From Actinobacteria bacterium IMCC19121 (GTDB lineage Bacteria; Actinomycetota; Actinomycetes; Nanopelagicales; Nanopelagicaceae): a DNA stretch of 64,000 nucleotides. Shown here piece by piece: positions 35,338 through 44,668 of this stretch. A program made the position numbers and the translations under genes. The DNA lies in contig CP015605.1 of assembly GCA_002284895.1 (NCBI GenBank), forward strand, positions 1,054,001-1,118,000. Direction: 5' to 3'. The notes beneath the pieces were generated by a model. It did no database searches. It had not been told where the DNA came from and saw nothing but the letters and a program-made list of their open reading frames with translations. How positions within the stretch are numbered: the stretch's first letter is position 1; each line of letters starts with the position of its first letter.

Positions 35338-36528
35338 TTATTTAATTGCGTTTTGCAGCTCTGAAACGCGATTAGTGCGTTCCCAAGCAAACTCTGGAAG
35401 TTCACGACCGAAGTGACCATAGGCACTGGTAAGTGAATAGATAGGTCGCAATAGATCTAAGTCACGGATAATCGCAGCAGGGCGAAGATCAAATACCGTC
35501 GTGACCGCGTTTTGAATCTTTGCTACTGGAACTGTTTCTGTCCCAAAAGTTTCGACAAACACGCCCACTGGCTGTGCTTTACCAATTGCGTAGGCAACCT
35601 GTACTTCACATCGTCGAGCTAATCCTGCTGCAACAACATTCTTGGCAACCCAACGCATTGCATATGCCGCAGAGCGATCCACCTTTGATGGATCTTTTCC
35701 ACTAAATGCGCCTCCGCCGTGACGAGCCATTCCACCGTATGTATCAACAATAATTTTGCGCCCAGTTAAACCAGCATCTCCCATAGGACCACCAATTACG
35801 AAGCGACCTGTTGGGTTAATCAAAGTACGCAAATCTTTGCGAGGTAGATCAATCGTCGAAAGAATTGGGTCAATAACATGCTCAATAACTTCAGGAGTGA
35901 GCTTCTTTGCCACATCTACTTCTTCAGCGTGCTGGCTTGAGATAACGACGGTATTGAGCGCAACTGCTCTATCTCCGTCATATTCAATGGTTACTTGAGT
36001 CTTTCCGTCGGGGCGAAGATATGGAAGTAATCCAGATTTGCGAACCTTTGTTAACTGCTGCGCAAGTGCATGGGCCAACCAAATCGGAAGTGGCATTAAC
36101 TCTTTTGTGTCATCGCAGGCGTAACCAAACATCAAACCTTGATCTCCAGCACCTTGTAGGTCTAGAGGATCAACTTGTGACCCAACGCGATGCTCATAGG
36201 CATCATCTACGCCTTGTGCAATGTCTTGAGACTGCTGACCAATCGAAATTGAAACACCGCAGCTATTTCCATCAAATCCCTTTTCAGATGAGTCATAGCC
36301 AATGTTTAAAACTGTGTCGCGAACAATGCCCATGACATCGGCATAACCATCAGTAGTAACTTCTCCAGCGACGTGGACCTGTCCGGTAGTGATGAGTGTT
36401 TCAACTGCTACGCGGGATTTCTTGTCTTGCGCGAGTAAAGAGTCCAAAACAGCATCAGAGATTGCATCGGCAATCTTGTCTGGGTGGCCTTCGGTTACTG
36501 ATTCTGAAGTAAATAGACGTTGTGACAT
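35338..36528 (-). CDS. metK: S-adenosylmethionine synthetase
   Basis: Makes SAM from methionine and ATP. The 396-residue protein starts [20 protein letters not shown] and carries [12 protein letters not shown] and [19 protein letters not shown], the two PROSITE-type MetK signatures. Length is normal. It is 4 bp downstream of coaBC and shows no SAM riboswitch upstream. SAM made here would feed TrmI and RsmB encoded nearby. Confidence 0.97.
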
Positions 36529-36532
36529 TGTC

Positions 36533-37717
36533 TTATCCTAACTGTTCGCGGGCGTAATCAAGAAGATGATGGGCAAGCGTGTCTTTAGATTGTCGTGCAA
36601 TAGGGACTAAATCCCCATTTCGAAGCACAATAGTACCTTCAGTTTCATCCTCTCCAAAAATGGCTCCTCCGGTGACATCATTCACATAAATGAGGTCCAA
36701 ACCTTTGGAAACGAGTTTGGATTGTGCAGATGCAATGAGTTCGCTTGTTTGGGCCGCAAATCCAACCATCACTTGATTTGTCTTCTTTGCCGACAAGGTA
36801 GCCAAGAGATCGGGGTTAACTTGTAGATCTATAGAGGTGAAATCACTCTTTTCAATCTTCTCAACTGAACTCTGTTTTGGTCTTGCATCTGCAATCGCGG
36901 CACTCATCACCAAAATATCTGCATCAGGGAAGCTCTTCTCTAACTCAGTAAGCATCTGCTGGGCGCTTTCAACATGCGTAGTGAGCACACCTTCGCAATC
37001 AGCCATCTCTACATTTGCCGCAATCAGGTGAACAGTTGCCCCGCGTGCAGCTGCAGCTTTAGCAATGGCCACACCTTGCTTTCCAGATGATCTATTTCCG
37101 ATGAATCGAACTGGGTCGATAGCTTCTCGAGTTCCTCCAGCGGTTACCAACACCTTCTTACCTAGAAGATCGCGTTTGATCCCATTCATGGCAAAGAATT
37201 CATCGATAATTCTTTGTGTGTGAGGAAAGCGTCCTTGACCAGAATCTGAACCAGTCAGTCGACCAACTTCAGGCTCCATCACTACGAAACCACGCGCTCT
37301 AAGTGTTGCTACATTGTTAACTGTTGCAGGATCGAGCCACATGGATGGATGCATAGCAGGAACAACTAATTTTGGAACTCCACTTGCTAAGACTAGGTTG
37401 GTAAGCAAATCATCGGCTCTACCCATGGCCAAACGCGCAATCAGATCTGCAGTTGCTGGGGCGATAATGAAGAAATCAGCCAACTTGGCGAGTGAAATGT
37501 GGCGAACTTGATCAACGTCTTCCCACACTTGTGTTGTAACAGGGCGACCGGAAAGCGCCTGCCAGGTTGCAGCACCAACAAAATTGAGCGAATTAGGAGT
37601 AGGGACAACAGTGACCAAAAAACCATTGTCTTGGAGACGTCGCAATAAATCGGCTGATTTATATGCTGCAATTCCACCACCGATACCGAGAATAACCTCG
37701 CGGTTAGTGGCGCTCAT
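36533..37717 (-). CDS. coaBC: Phosphopantothenoylcysteine decarboxylase / phosphopantothenate-cysteine ligase
   Basis: Bifunctional CoA-synthesis enzyme of 394 residues: N-terminal flavin-dependent CoaC domain (about 1-180) and C-terminal CoaB ligase (about 185-394, [25 protein letters not shown]). The CoaC His is in [21 protein letters not shown]. Two other motifs differ from the E. coli form: PxMNxxMW reads PAMHPSMW, and the ACGD stretch with its catalytic Cys reads TGSD. These changes may be typical of actinobacteria; I could not compare. It follows rpoZ by 11 bp. Confidence 0.93.
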
Positions 37718-37728
37718 AAAGTTAGTAC

Positions 37729-37977
37729 TTAAGCTGTTGGTTCTAGATTTTCAATCGTGAGCAAGCCTTCATTAATCTCGCGAAGTGCGATTGATAATGG
37801 CTTCTCATGAACGTGTGTTTCAACTAGTGGTCCGACATATTCAAGAAGACCTTCGCCTAGTTGTGAGTAATAGGCATTAATCTGACGAGCGCGCTTAGCT
37901 GCATACAAAACTAAACTGTATTTAGAACCGCTCTTATCTAGAAGTTCATCGATAGGTGGATTTGTAATGCCATCCAT
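37729..37977 (-). CDS. rpoZ: RNA polymerase omega subunit
   Basis: Small RNA polymerase assembly subunit, 82 residues. [20 protein letters not shown] is the conserved core, and the C-terminal [16 protein letters not shown] follows. Position between gmk and coaBC is the standard bacterial arrangement, with gmk-rpoZ 49 bp apart. No unusual residues are seen. Confidence 0.95.
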
Positions 37978-38026
37978 GTTTATACCCCGCTCAGATCTAG
38001 TGTTCTGTGAGAATCCGTTTGCGGAC

Positions 38027-38899
38027 TCAAGAGGCCAATGCTACCAGTTGGGCAACCACTCGCTCGACGGCATCATTTACGATGACATGGTCGAAAAATG
38101 AGGCTGCCGCAAGCTCTTCTTGGGCTAACTGCAACCTATGAGCCCTTCTCTCGGGATCATCAGTTCCGCGCCCTTCAAGACGTGCTACCAACTCTTCCCA
38201 TGAAGGAGGTTCTAAGAAGACGAGTATTGCTTGCGGTAGATGAGCTTTGACTTGCTTTGCACCATCTATTTCGATCTCTAGCAAAACATTTTCACCCCGC
38301 AAGAGCGCATCCTGTACTTCAACACTAGGTGTTCCATAGCGATTTCCGGCAAACTCTGCCCATTCCAAAAATTCATCTTCTTTTATTCTGCGATCAAACT
38401 CGTCGTTAGTGATGAAAAAGTAGTCAATTCCATTGAGTTCATTGTTTCTTGGTTGTCTAGTAGTTGCAGAAACACTGACCCAGAAATCGCCTGATTTTCG
38501 AAGCAGCGCTGCAATTGTGCTCTTGCCTACTCCCCCTGGACCTGAGAGAACTATGAGTTTTCCAGGACGCACTGCATGTGTATTTTTCATAAATTCGTTG
38601 CGCAGTTCCTTAATTTGATGGCGTCCAAGTCCGGCAATTCTACGCGTTGGTGAGATGTTTAATCGCTCCATAAGGCTTTGTGCACGAACTTTTCCAACAC
38701 CCGAAAGCGCCTCTAACAGTTCTCTCACGCGCATTTTTGCCACAGCATCATCTGTATGTGCAATCTCCAACACTGTGTCAATCGTGTAATCACCAGATTT
38801 GATTTTTGACTTTACCTCGGCCCGCCGCTTTCTAGATGCTGCAGCCTTAGCTAATGCCTCAGCACGCTGCTGCGGCGTAAGTACTGGAGGTGCTCCCAT
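38027..38899 (-). CDS. gmk: mIHF-like DNA-binding domain fused to guanylate kinase
   Basis: One uninterrupted 290-residue frame carries two proteins that are normally separate neighbours. Residues 1-104 match the mycobacterial integration host factor mIHF, with an [18 protein letters not shown] start, [14 protein letters not shown] (residues 67-80) and [10 protein letters not shown]. Residues 112-290 are guanylate kinase, with P-loop GPGGVGKST at 120-128 and the GMP-binding [11 protein letters not shown]. An in-frame ATG at 38590 (codon 104) could start Gmk alone but has no good ribosome-binding site. Gmk makes GDP from GMP; mIHF is a nucleoid and stringent-response-linked DNA-binding protein. 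The fusion follows pyrF by 25 bp. Confidence 0.9.
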
Positions 38900-38924
38900 G
38901 CGCTAACCCTAACTGCATGTGAAG

Positions 38925-39632
38925 TTAATTGAGAATCTGTTCTGCCAGCTCAATGGCTCGCTCACGCATGGCTTGGGCTCCATTAGCAAAACTTTGGGTG
39001 ATTGGGCGGCCAATGACAACGAGATTTGCGCCTCGATCGATAGCTTCGCGCGGCGTCATGGTTCGTGCTTGATCATCACCGCTCGAAGAATCTGTCGGCC
39101 TAACTCCAGGTGTGATAATCGTTATCTCCTCACCGACATTTTGACGAATAGCAAGAATTTCAAGTGGTGAACACACAATTGCTCGCGCACCACCAGCCAC
39201 GGCTATCTTTGCCAAGCCAACTGCTGAATCAAGGGCGTGGGACTTAAACCCTATCTCGGTAACATCTTTTTCTGACAAAGAAGTCAAAATCGTGACACCT
39301 GTGATGTGAGTAGAAGGCATTGCATCTGCAGCTGCCTGAACCATTGCACTTCCGCCCGATGCGTGCACTGTTAGGAACTTGGGCCGCAAAGTTGAAACAG
39401 CTCTAGCAGCCCCTGCAACAGTGTGTGGAATATCGTGGAGCTTTAAATCTAAGAAAATATCAGTGTTGCAACTATCAGCTATTGCCCTTATTCCATCATT
39501 TCCAAATGTCGTATAGAACTCCAAGCCTAACTTAACTACCGATATCACCCCATTAGTGGCGCTTACCCAAGCTTTAGCGATCTCTAAATCATTTGTGTCG
39601 ACCGCTAAAACAATGGGGGCTGGCTTGTTCAT
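38925..39632 (-). CDS. pyrF: Orotidine 5'-phosphate decarboxylase
   Basis: Final step to UMP. The 235-residue protein has the type 1 catalytic array LDLKLHDIPHT (Asp62, Lys64, Asp67) and the phosphate-binding ITPGVRP. It is 3 bp after pyrD at the end of the pyrimidine operon. Actinobacterial PyrF often belongs to a longer, divergent type 2 group, whereas this short one is of the type 1 form. Confidence 0.94.
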   Translation of the reverse strand: MNKPAPIVLAVDTNDLEIAKAWVSATNGVISVVKLGLEFYTTFGNDGIRAIADSCNTDIFLDLKLHDIPHTVAGAARAVSTLRPKFLTVHASGGSAMVQAAADAMPSTHITGVTILTSLSEKDVTEIGFKSHALDSAVGLAKIAVAGGARAIVCSPLEILAIRQNVGEEITIITPGVRPTDSSSGDDQARTMTPREAIDRGANLVVIGRPITQSFANGAQAMRERAIELAEQILN

Positions 39633-39635
39633 TAC

Positions 39636-40574
39636 CTACTCACTTTCCGGTCTATGTGCATAACCAATTGCTTGGCGTAGGGATGTGAAACCCTTTGCTA
39701 CCAATAAATCTTTGAGTTCATTTTGAATAGACTTAATGGCAGTTGGATTGCCAAAGCTTGCAGTTCCAATGGACACACCACTAGCACCAGCAGCAATCAT
39801 CTCTAAGGCATCCCTCCCACTAGATATTCCACCCATACCAAGAATAGGAACCTGTGGCATTTCAGCATGAACTTGATAAACAGCTCTCACTGCAATTGGC
39901 TTGATAGCTGGACCTGATAAACCGCCAGTTTTTCCACCAAGGTGTGGTCGCAAAGTGTCCAGGTTTATCACCATTCCTAACACCGTATTGATGAGAGCCA
40001 AACCATCGGCACCAGCTTCAACCACACCTTTGGCAATAGAGACTAGATCTGTAACATCTGGTGAAAGTTTGGCAATGATCGGTAGTTCTCCACCGATAGT
40101 TCTGCGCACACCATCGATGACTCGTCTTGAGGCTTCGGGATCACAAGCAAAAACTAACCCTCTATTTTCAACGTTAGGGCAGGAAATATTAACTTCAATG
40201 GCGCTAATGCCAGAAACCGAGCGCAATTTACGTGCCAGAGTTGAATACTCTTCAACGGTTTCTCCAGCAATAGAAATGATGATGCGCGCTTTTTGTTCAA
40301 CTAAAAACGGAACATCTTTGGCTAAAAATGCATCAATGCCTGGGCCCTGTAAACCGATGGAATTGAGCATTCCACTTGGTGTTTCAGCCATACGAGGAGT
40401 TGCTCGGCCATTGCGAGCCTTGAGCATCACTGACTTTGTTACAACACCTCCCATTGTTTTGATATCAAAAAACTGCGATAACTCGCGTCCTGAACTAGCA
40501 CAACCACTTGCGGTGAAAGTTGGAGCAGGAAACCACGCATTTCCTAAAGTAGTCGAAAAATCTAATGCGGTCAT
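39636..40574 (-). CDS. pyrD: Dihydroorotate dehydrogenase, class 1B catalytic subunit
   Basis: Oxidises dihydroorotate to orotate with FMN. The catalytic base is a Cys (Cys132 in VNISCPN), which places it in class 1, and the adjacent pyrK shows it is the NAD-linked 1B type. The 312 residues end near RHRPES-like AHRPESE. Its ATG overlaps pyrK by 4 bp. This is a soluble enzyme, unlike the membrane quinone-linked class 2 PyrD found in many actinobacteria. Confidence 0.93.
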   Translation of the reverse strand: MTALDFSTTLGNAWFPAPTFTASGCASSGRELSQFFDIKTMGGVVTKSVMLKARNGRATPRMAETPSGMLNSIGLQGPGIDAFLAKDVPFLVEQKARIIISIAGETVEEYSTLARKLRSVSGISAIEVNISCPNVENRGLVFACDPEASRRVIDGVRRTIGGELPIIAKLSPDVTDLVSIAKGVVEAGADGLALINTVLGMVINLDTLRPHLGGKTGGLSGPAIKPIAVRAVYQVHAEMPQVPILGMGGISSGRDALEMIAAGASGVSIGTASFGNPTAIKSIQNELKDLLVAKGFTSLRQAIGYAHRPESE

Positions 40575-41407
40575 AGCGCCTTACCAACTTTGTCCCATTG
40601 AACAAATGATCCATCCATAACAGGACCGTCGATACATGAGCGAAGCATCGAGATGTTTCCCTCAGAATCTGCAACAGGTAAAACACACGTCATGCATATT
40701 CCAATGCCGCACGCCATGGATTCCTCTACTGCGCATTGATGTACTACATCTGTTCCTCGTGTTATCTCATCAATAGCTGAAAGCATCGCCATTGGTCCGC
40801 AAGAGTAAATAACTGCAATATTGAGATCTTGTATCAATCCAGCAATAGGTTCAGTGACACGTCCGGTCTGACCCATGGAGCCATCTTCTGTGTAGATACG
40901 AAGGGAATTAACGGCGCGCTTGCCTTCCATGGGTGCATAAATCTTTGAAGCTGTACTTGCACCAAGCAACATGTCCACGCGACAGCCCTTAGCGTTGAGT
41001 ACCTCAGCTAAACCGAAAAGTGGAGCTGATCCATAACCGCCGCCAACAAGTAGAACTTGGACTGGTTCTGTTGGAATTCCGAAAGCAGTTCCAAGTGGAA
41101 CAACGATATCTAGAATCGCGCCTTCGACTTGAGCGCATAACCATTTACTGCCTTGTCCATGTGGCGCGACAATGAGCTCCATTGTTCCGCCAGAGACTGA
41201 GTTAGCCGATACTCGAGATATCGCAAAAGCTCTGCGCAATACCATTCGCGAATTCTCTCCACCAACATTTATCGCCACAAAGTTTCCAGGCCGACAACTT
41301 TGAGCCAGATCTCCAATGTTTATGATGAGCTGGTGATACTGACCCACGCGCTTGTTGCTCACAATATTTGCGCGAATCTGCGCCGCATTCTTATTGATGC
41401 CGGCCAT
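40571..41407 (-). CDS. pyrK: Dihydroorotate dehydrogenase electron transfer subunit
   Basis: Iron-sulfur flavoprotein partner of class 1B PyrD, passing electrons to NAD. The 278 residues include an FAD-binding ferredoxin-reductase fold and a C-terminal 2Fe-2S site with four cysteines (MACGIGICMTC plus SC after an insert). The ATG directly follows the carB stop. Together with PyrD it forms the alpha2beta2 complex. Confidence 0.92.
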   Translation of the reverse strand: MAGINKNAAQIRANIVSNKRVGQYHQLIINIGDLAQSCRPGNFVAINVGGENSRMVLRRAFAISRVSANSVSGGTMELIVAPHGQGSKWLCAQVEGAILDIVVPLGTAFGIPTEPVQVLLVGGGYGSAPLFGLAEVLNAKGCRVDMLLGASTASKIYAPMEGKRAVNSLRIYTEDGSMGQTGRVTEPIAGLIQDLNIAVIYSCGPMAMLSAIDEITRGTDVVHQCAVEESMACGIGICMTCVLPVADSEGNISMLRSCIDGPVMDGSFVQWDKVGKAL

Positions 41408-44400
41408 TTAGCCCAACCACTTCTGAAGAGACTTAATGGACAAGCTATTACTTTGTAAGAATCGAATACCTTCAACTGCTGCACTAAAGCCTGCAGTTGT
41501 TGTAATGATCGGGATTGAACGCTGAACCGATGCTGTGCGAATAGCCCAACCATCTTGACGTGTTCCCCTACCAACTGGAGTGTTAATTACTAGGTCTATA
41601 TCTCCAGAGTTAATGATTTCGACAATGGTTCTCTCCCCCATTGGCCCAGTACCCTCAGAGTTCTTTCGCACAGTCACGCACGTTACGCCATGCTTATTTA
41701 AAAAGCCGGCAGTTCCCTCCGTGGCTAGGATTCTAAAACCACATTCTTGCAAACCAAGCGCTGCTTGGATTCCAGATTCCTTGTCCTTATCAGCCAAGGA
41801 GATAAAGACTGTGCCGGATTTAGGAAGTGGACCAAAGGCAGCAATCTGGCTCTTGGCATAACTCTCACCGAAAGTTGGAGAAATACCCATCACTTCTCCC
41901 GTTGATCTCATCTCCGGTCCAAGTACGGCATCAACGCCGCGCCCATCACTTCTGCGGAATCTGTTCCACGGTAGAACGGCTTCCTTAACTGAAATTCCCT
42001 TTGCAACTCCATCTCCACTAGCCGGAAGTAGTAATTCGTTGCGCAGCTCGGCAATTGTTGAACCGACTGCAATCCTGGCTGCTGCTTTTGCAAGTGGAAC
42101 TCCGGTTGCTTTACTAACGAATGGAACCGTTCTAGATGCTCGAGGATTGGCTTCTAGTACATACAAAACGTTCTCAGCTATTGCGAATTGAATATTGATT
42201 AATCCGCGAACATCAACACCACGTGCAATCTTTTCAGTGGCTTGGCGAATTTCAGTGAGTTGGGCTGGTGTAACAGTCATTGATGGCAGAACGCAGGCGC
42301 TATCACCGCTGTGAATACCTGCTTCTTCGATGTGCTCCATCACCCCGCCCAGAAATAATTCGTGGCCATCAAAGAGGGCATCAACATCGATTTCAATGGC
42401 GCTATCTAAGAATCGATCTACAAGAACTGGGTGATCTGGCGTTATGTCGGTGGCCCGTGTGATGAATCCACCAAGTGCGGCATCGTCATAGACAATCTCC
42501 ATACCGCGTCCACCCAAGACGAATGATGGGCGAACCAGTACTGGATAACCAATTCTTTGAGCGATTGTGATCGCCTCTAACTGCGATGCTGCCATTCCAA
42601 ACTCTGGGGCGGTTAAGCCCTGCTCGTTGAGAATATTTCCAAATGCTCCACGTTCTTCAGCTAAATTAATTGCATCTGGCGAAGTTCCTAGAATCGTGAT
42701 GCCGGCAGCTTTCAAACCAGCAGCAAGACCTAGAGGAGTTTGTCCTCCCAACTGCGTGATTACGCCAAGGACTGGACCAGCAAGTGATTCTGCGTGCACG
42801 ACTTCTATAACATCTTCAAGCGTTAAGGGCTCGAAATAAAGACGATTACTTGTGTCGTAGTCAGTCGAGACTGTCTCGGGATTGCAGTTGACCATGATTG
42901 TTTCATAGCCAGCCTCGCGCAAGACAAAGGATGCGTGAACACACGAGTAATCAAATTCAATTCCCTGACCGATTCGATTGGGACCACTTCCCAAAATGAT
43001 TACGGCCGGACTCGTGCGAGGCTTAACTTCACTCTCTTCCTCATAGGATGAGTAGTGATACGGCGTGAAAGCTTCAAACTCTGCTGCGCATGTGTCGACA
43101 GTCTTATAGACAGGGCGAATCCCTAAATGATGACGCTCGCGACGAATGTCCTCTTCTTGCAGTCCGCGCAAGGCTGCGATCTGATTATCTGAAAAACCAT
43201 TTCCCTTTGCTTCGCGCAACTTCTCAGCCGTTAGTTCGCCCAGTTGTGTGAGAGCAAAGGCCTGTTCATTAATAATTTGAATCTGTCGCAGATACCACGG
43301 GTCGATCTTGGTTGCAGCGAAGACTTCCTCTATGGATGCACCGGCCCACATCGCCTTCTGTACCTGCTGGAGTCGATATTCGGTAGGAACTTTCATTGAA
43401 ACTAAGAGATTTGCCTTTTCTTGTTCACTTATCTGTGGCCAACTAAAAATGGCCTCCTTGCGCTCCAATGAGCGCAGAGCCTTCATGAGCGCTTCCGAGA
43501 AAGAGCGTCCAATAGCCATTGCTTCACCAACGCTCTTCATCGTTGTTGTTAAACGCGGATCAGCATCGGCAAATTTTTCGAAGGCAAAACGTGGCACCTT
43601 CACAACTACGTAGTCAAGCGTTGGCTCAAATGAGGCTGGGGTTGTTTTAGTGATGTCGTTCTGAATCTCATCAAGGGTGTAACCGATTGCTAGCTTTGTT
43701 GCAATCTTTGCGATTGGAAAACCAGTGGCCTTTGATGCCAAAGCACTAGATCGTGAAACTCTTGGGTTCATCTCGATAACAATGATTCGACCATTATCTG
43801 GATTGACTGCAAATTGAATATTGCATCCACCGGTTGCCACGCCTACTTCACGAATGATGTCAATTGATAGGTCTCGCAGCTTTTGATACTCAACATCAGT
43901 CAAAGTCATTGCCGGGGCAACGGTGATCGAATCTCCGGTGTGAGTACCCATAGGGTCAAGATTTTCAATAGTACAAACAATGACCACGTTATCCTTGTGA
44001 TCACGCATAACTTCAAGCTCATATTCTTTCCAGCCTAAGATCGATTCCTCTAGAAGAACCTCAGAAGTTGGGCTGTGACGCAATCCTGCTCCGGCAATTT
44101 GATTTAATTCCTCTTCATTAAATGCTATTCCAGAACCAAGACCGCCCATGGTGAAAGATGGACGTACAACCACTGGATAGTTCAGGTCAACAACTGCTGC
44201 GAAAATCTCTTCCATGGTGTGACAAATAACGGACTTAGCTGACTCTCCCCCGACTTTTTCGACAATTCCTCTGAACAATTCACGGTTTTCACCACGTTGA
44301 ATTGCAGGAACATCAGCACCAATAAGTTTCACACCATATTTTGCCAATATTCCTTTTTCAAAGAGCCCAATCGCAGCATTAAGTGCAGTTTGACCACCTA

Positions 44401-44668
44401 AAGTTGCTAAAACTGCATCCGGCTTTTCAAGTGCAATAATCTTTTCAATGATTTCGGAAGTGATTGGCTCGATATAGGTAGCATCTGCAAACTCAGGATC
44501 GGTCATGATTGTCGCTGGGTTTGAGTTAACCAAAATAACGCGAATGCCTTCAGCGCGAAGCACACGACAAGCTTGTGTTCCTGAATAATCGAACTCACAT
44601 GCTTGGCCAATAACAATTGGACCACTTCCAATTACAAGAACGCTTTTGATCGAAGGATCTAGAGGCAT
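41408..44668 (-). CDS. carB: Carbamoyl-phosphate synthase large subunit
   Basis: Makes carbamoyl phosphate for pyrimidines and arginine. The 1086 residues show two ATP-grasp halves (signatures [14 protein letters not shown] and [11 protein letters not shown]), with an oligomerisation region between, and a C-terminal allosteric MGS-like domain (from about residue 950, ending KWLG). Length is normal. The ATG shares one base with the carA stop (TAATG). Its position inside the pyr operon means it is under pyrimidine control, possibly limiting for arginine synthesis. Confidence 0.97.

Follow-up and report, generated by a model that had tools for sequence, protein, structure and literature searches.

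A single open reading frame joins an actinobacterial IHF domain to guanylate kinase in a member of the Nanopelagicaceae

The window analyzed here is a stretch of 64,000 nucleotides from Actinobacteria bacterium IMCC19121 (assembly GCA_002284895.1, contig CP015605.1, positions 1,054,001 to 1,118,000), and all coordinates are counted from its first letter. On its minus strand, one frame joins a domain of the actinobacterial integration host factor family (known as mIHF in mycobacteria and sIHF in Streptomyces) to a guanylate kinase (Gmk). The reading that we consider probable, with some reserve, is that of a bifunctional single chain, in which mIHF and a complete Gmk fold independently on a flexible tether and no coupling between them is required. 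The features of the gene are as follows.

38027-38899, minus strand: fused mihF-gmk gene, 290 codons and a stop in one uninterrupted frame
38588-38899, minus strand: actinobacterial IHF (mIHF/sIHF) domain, residues 1-104, with an S13-like H2TH fold (NF041260, PF22525, 4itq, 6bek)
38624-38644, minus strand: RRxR-GLG motif, residues 86-92, here RRIAGLG, with the third basic position occupied by Ala89
38588-38590, minus strand: internal in-frame ATG, residue 104, without a Shine-Dalgarno match of four bases
38567-38587, minus strand: linker, residues 105-111, with model confidence below 50 at residues 106-108
38030-38566, minus strand: guanylate kinase domain, residues 112-290 (TIGR03263, 1znw)
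38516-38542, minus strand: P-loop GPGGVGKST, residues 120-128

Both domains are recognized by curated profiles. NF041260 (actino_IHF) matches residues 5-103 with 125 bits (curated cut-off 60) and TIGR03263 (guanyl_kin) matches residues 113-288 with 217.8 bits (curated cut-off 160.45), while the Pfam families H2TH_5 (PF22525, 88.4 bits) and Guanylate_kin also exceed their cut-offs. The initial annotation of this DNA, made from the letters alone, had described a single frame with an mIHF-like domain and a guanylate kinase, and the profiles bear this out, on the minus strand. By sequence against solved structures, the N-terminal part finds 4itq (SCO1480, sIHF; E = 5.1e-27) and also 6tob (mIHF), and the C-terminal part finds guanylate kinases. 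The AlphaFold2 model of the fusion has a mean per-residue confidence (pLDDT) of 89 and a predicted template modeling score (pTM) of 0.60, and the linker falls below 50 at the residues listed above. Within this model, residues 16-104 superimpose on sIHF bound to DNA (6bek; Z = 16.7, root-mean-square deviation 0.9 over 89 residues; Z = 15.9 against 4itq), and the kinase part matches Mycobacterium tuberculosis Gmk (1znw; Z = 25.8 over 179 residues). The model fits a tethered pair of independently folded domains. The genome, a single contig of 1,506,415 bases estimated to be 99.95% complete, contains a single match to the whole fused protein and a single mIHF match; because the fused protein has no other match in the genome, it is expected to provide the GMP kinase activity.

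The fusion is common to the relatives of the window genome. An uninterrupted match over both domains was found in 107 of the 151 genomes of its family (here coded f1), from 11 of 17 genera, and in all 20 genomes of its own genus in that search, 13 of which are single contigs. Near relatives range from 97% identity downwards, with Candidatus Planktophila at 78% and 74%. In six further family genomes both domains are spanned with one in-frame stop, and five of the 151 gave no match; the genera in which the genes are split are g6, g10, g11, g13, g15 and g17. The initial annotation had named a sequencing error near 38590 as what could undo the fusion, and a read or assembly error hiding a stop or frameshift there is excluded, because the frame recurs uninterrupted throughout these family and genus genomes, the single-contig ones included. 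A search of the order gave a match in 272 of 296 genomes, among the matches listed; at least 12 genomes of the window's genus had no match in this search, all of them at most 83% complete, and two more (G236 and G270) gave weak matches only. Among 24 fused f1 genes the spacing between the ends of the two domain matches varies from 4 to 29 residues. In genus g17 (L135, L136, L137, L249 and L250), one stop is all that separates mihF from gmk in a shared frame, and residue 89 is non-basic, as it commonly is in the fused relatives; these pairs could be precursors of a fusion or fusions that have split again.

Surveys of other families (394 genomes in a class search and 296 in a phylum search) found the fusion outside f1 as well, in family f36, where reading of the DNA confirmed it in 19 of 20 genomes, in 2 of 17 genomes of f34 and in one genome of f52 (G891). 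The twentieth f36 genome, G451, has its mIHF in a frame of 260 codons close to the edge of a contig, where the whole frame was not read. In f34 the remainder comprises nine split genomes and six without an mIHF match (G357, G467, G497, G513, G550 and G564, 95-99% complete), in which mIHF has apparently been lost; in f52, of which two genomes were read, G852 is split. Each of the 26 other genomes taken as fused (20 from f36, two from f34, one from f52 and three from other f1 genera) has one mIHF match, and in 25 this match falls inside the Gmk frame, the exception again being G451. Four example fusions all scored above both NCBIfam cut-offs, and the mIHF part of one f36 genome (G633) scored 56.3 bits, slightly below. 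Three loci (L141, L143 and L153) are counted as fused from their frames and the profile search, where tblastn gave L143 and L153 as split and L141 as lacking mIHF. A Microbacterium protein annotated as guanylate kinase (WP_223172673.1, 298 residues) shares 74-78% identity with six f36 members and 61-63% with eight others, and because of this resemblance f36 is very probably Microbacteriaceae.

The initial annotation had taken mihF and gmk to be adjacent separate genes in other actinobacteria. This holds in part, as in a Tsukamurella record and, by its listed feature names, a Collinsella record, but not for f36 or the fused f34 and f52 genomes. In M. tuberculosis the same two families sit side by side in mihF (Rv1388)-gmk-rpoZ, although as separate genes and proteins. 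Streptomyces SCO1480 resembles the N-terminal domain in sequence and structure, but is a free protein of 107 residues whose motif reads RRVR, with Arg at the third basic position where the window has Ala. A further parallel is the Microbacterium sp. NIBRBAC000506063 protein WP_223172673.1, a single frame with the same domain order (NF041260, 69.6 bits; TIGR03263, 208.9 bits), which differs in belonging to another family, in being probably an independent fusion, and in being annotated only as guanylate kinase. Rickettsia gmk, with its inserted palindromic element, shows a guanylate kinase active despite added sequence (PMC2229807); there, however, the insert is repeat-derived, changed substrate affinity and is not a second functional protein. 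No published report of an mIHF-Gmk fusion was found in open-access full text, a scope that leaves out most subscription papers; both families are known, and the fusion itself is apparently unreported.

Both halves of the gene are under purifying selection. The ratio of nonsynonymous to synonymous substitution (dN/dS) is 0.06 for mIHF, 0.11 for the linker (8 codons) and 0.04 for Gmk in 123 pairs of more than 85% identity, values to be read with synonymous divergence (dS) at about 1.4-1.6, near saturation. In 53 fused proteins (48 from f1, 5 from f36), R23, R26 and R87 of the mIHF domain are invariant and R86 is nearly so; the P-loop residues G120, P121, V124, G125, K126 and T128 are invariant too. 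Relative to Gmk, mIHF has evolved fast. The median ratio of mIHF to Gmk distance is 1.62 in fused f1, 1.75 in fused f36, 1.50 in split f1 and 1.86 in split f34, against 0.96 in other split lineages, for pairs with a Gmk distance of 0.1-1.0 and groups that differ in depth.

The most likely origin of the bifunctional chain is loss of the mihF stop in an old mihF-gmk-rpoZ neighborhood, in lineages where mIHF was presumably already fast-evolving and no longer had to outnumber Gmk by a wide margin. Gmk would then be produced at the level of mIHF, or mIHF at that of Gmk, with the ratio forced to 1:1; such a fixed ratio would hold only if there is neither cleavage nor an internal start. In Mycobacterium smegmatis, fusions to fluorescent proteins can replace the essential msIHF (the fused end being taken here from the construct names), and low msIHF is reported to suffice for growth (PMC10028186), which makes a bifunctional chain plausible. 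A lineage locked at 1:1 agrees with this low need. Several observations weigh against so simple an arrangement. The M. smegmatis fusion strains are described as having longer cells, and the Dendra2 fusions as growing slightly more slowly (PMC10028186); a forced 1:1 ratio of mIHF to an enzyme is not obviously harmless, given what is reported for M. tuberculosis (PMC6155035), and is a real puzzle. The linker is conserved, which a pure tether would not need, and persistence through the 11 f1 genera together with recurrence elsewhere could mean a benefit. The speed-up of mIHF is no mark of the fusion itself, because split f1 and split f34 show it as well. At the protein level the single chain is a prediction from DNA. 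In mycobacteria, mIHF is essential and is regarded as a very abundant chromosome organizer. A lineage in which mIHF is tied at 1:1 to an enzyme of metabolism, no second copy having been found in the genome, would constitute a natural test of what its essential job is. The genome also encodes one HU protein, and mIHF is therefore not its sole nucleoid protein. Annotations reading "guanylate kinase" can hide a nucleoid domain, and surveys of nucleoid proteins based on names would miss such proteins.

A different reading, which we hold to be rather unlikely, keeps the fused frame but separates its parts, either by internal initiation yielding free Gmk or by cutting of the linker. The candidate start is the ATG at 38590 (residue 104), which, in the form EFMK, is retained by most members of the window's subclade and is not kept elsewhere in the genus. 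The initial annotation had noted that this ATG lacks a clear ribosome-binding site, and it indeed has no Shine-Dalgarno match of at least four bases; this tells little, because five of the eight starts read at the locus, those of the fusion, rpoZ, coaBC and the pyrD- and pyrK-like genes, have no match of four either. Across the window's family, 110 frames found by motif reduced to 83 non-identical genes, of which 74 were analyzed against synonymous shuffles, a set weighted to the window's subclade by a motif that misses fused genes with KR for RR. A Shine-Dalgarno match of at least four bases followed by ATG or GTG occurs in 8 of the 74, below the 10.4 expected. Admitting any start codon, matches of at least four bases rise to 20 of 74 (16.4 expected) and those of at least five to 10 of 74 (3.9 expected), an excess that is partly due to TTG codons in genera g2 and g16; in some other fused genera, an AGGAG also precedes an ATG or TTG (G007; G001, G018 and G039). 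In a sample spread over the tree, the interval from 36 to 6 codons before the P-loop holds no in-frame ATG or GTG in 13 of 24 fused genes of f1 and in 9 of 14 of f36, whereas all 18 split f1 genes carry one; one is also present, however, in each of the three fused genes from f34 and f52. The test has limits: an ATG or GTG is likewise lacking from this interval in 4 of the 19 split genes from other families, and no more than 6 of the 18 split f1 genes pass the Shine-Dalgarno criterion. Internal initiation does not appear to be a conserved feature, and may exist in some genera. That a separate Gmk is not obviously made, as the initial annotation had it, agrees with the lack of a conserved start in the family, but the test is weak, with a poor positive control.

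Unlikely, too, is a regulatory coupling for which the fusion would be kept, in which GMP, GDP, GTP or (p)ppGpp on Gmk alters DNA binding by mIHF, or DNA alters Gmk. The initial annotation had likewise connected the fusion with the GDP/GTP pool behind (p)ppGpp. In its favor, the genome encodes one Rel protein, the same fusion occurs under four family codes, the linker is conserved, and (p)ppGpp is reported to act as an inhibitor of GMK in several phyla, the lid of the GMK dimer and the C-terminal tail being decisive (PMC6783271). M. tuberculosis mIHF is reported to be a homodimer in solution (PMC3724605), so that two dimers could interlock. The extra domain, however, is N-terminal, whereas the tail on which the ppGpp response depends is at the other end. 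With the pTM of 0.60 and the low linker confidence given above, the model predicts no fixed interface, and the spacing among the 24 fused f1 genes is variable. Bolder still, and improbable in our estimate, is the idea that mIHF and Gmk were welded together repeatedly, often after the grip on DNA had loosened, giving a chromosome-tethered kinase with guanine-nucleotide or ppGpp feedback on DNA binding, so that the nucleoid tracks GTP.

The grip on DNA is also at the center of the proposal that the mIHF part is mainly a scaffold, its DNA binding weakened and the fusion a stage on the way to loss of its nucleoid role. The window retains the first two Arg residues of the RRxR triad, and the third is Ala89; we take it that DNA binding by the M. 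tuberculosis protein needs this third Arg along with others. A survey of 159 loci, less two without an mIHF match and one ending before residue 89, left 156. Among 106 distinct fused proteins, none has Arg at residue 89, 99 are non-basic (Ala, Gln, Gly and one Val) and seven have Lys, whereas among 107 split mIHFs the residue is Arg or Lys in 67 and non-basic in 40. The seven Lys89 proteins (L021-L023, L025-L027 and L029) all belong to the window's family. In the tree sample the residue is non-basic in every one of the 42 fused proteins and in 7 of the 39 split ones, and independent contrasts on the 81-locus tree give 3.5 in the same direction and none opposite, of five (p = 0.125), with fewer contrasts left if the fused f1 rows form one clade. 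With this value, the 40 non-basic split proteins and the seven with Lys, a link between fusion and loss of the third basic residue was set aside, and is kept as a lead only. The residue is not family-defining, because so many split mIHFs are non-basic there. A basic residue is also missing from several split lineages, among them two genera of f34 and most of g17, so that its loss may precede fusion. Taken together with the fast evolution of mIHF, split or fused, and the six f34 genomes without it, this would mean that fusion arises where less is required of mIHF. The residue 89 counts, the high mIHF/Gmk distance ratios of f1, f34 and f36 and the six f34 genomes without mIHF are what a scaffold would lead one to expect. 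Yet the retained Lys89 proteins, the non-basic split proteins and the non-significant contrasts speak against it, as do the invariant or nearly invariant arginines and the low dN/dS of the mIHF part, and we regard it as very improbable.

Whichever of these holds, the fusion seems to have arisen more than once. A quick tree of four neighboring proteins at 81 loci (six rows with at most half of their columns filled) requires five changes of the fused state, all forced by starred branches, and taken alone implies two origins inside f1. Because constraining the 25 fused f1 rows together improves the likelihood, by 21.1 (approximately unbiased test, p-AU = 0.726), a single origin within f1 is likely; two origins were rejected in favor of this simpler history. 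A joint clade of fused f1 and f36 lowers the log-likelihood by 53, and because its p-AU is 0.091 a joint origin is not formally rejected. The f1 and f36 fusions are probably independent, on the basis of taxonomy and likelihood, with no significant test. In a tree of Gmk only, starred branches force at least four changes of the split label, and we read the sequence comparisons together as suggesting about four origins, in f1, f34, f36 and f52. Among 39 split pairs, 11 share a frame interrupted by just one stop, the removal of which would fuse them, and chance would give about a third; loss of the mihF stop between neighbors is the likeliest route.

The neighbors of the gene are listed below.

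38925-39632, minus strand: pyrF (orotidine 5'-phosphate decarboxylase), upstream neighbor (PF00215)
37729-37977, minus strand: rpoZ (RNA polymerase omega subunit), downstream neighbor (TIGR00690)
36533-37717, minus strand: coaBC (PF02441 and PF04127)
35338-36528, minus strand: metK-like gene (name presumed), which served as a marker

The fusion lies in a near-gapless run of genes on the minus strand (35338-44668) that holds pyrimidine genes, the fusion, rpoZ, coaBC and metK; within this run, we take carB, pyrD, pyrK and metK to be the names of their genes. The neighborhood with pyrF, gmk and rpoZ that goes with membership of the actinobacterial IHF family is present. In the stretches fetched for the 81 loci, rpoZ was found on the same strand at 81, metK at 78, coaBC at 75 and pyrF at 57, counts that record presence and not order; order was seen in the window and in two named records. 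In M. tuberculosis, a deletion of mihF is reported to be polar on gmk and rpoZ (PMC6155035). The host of the window is a common freshwater bacterium. A Microbacterium record (NZ_CP072877.1, L265), a sequence of 465 kb labeled as a plasmid, carries pyrF-like genes (two coding sequences), gmk, rpoZ and metK; a pair of Fic genes separates its gmk from its rpoZ.
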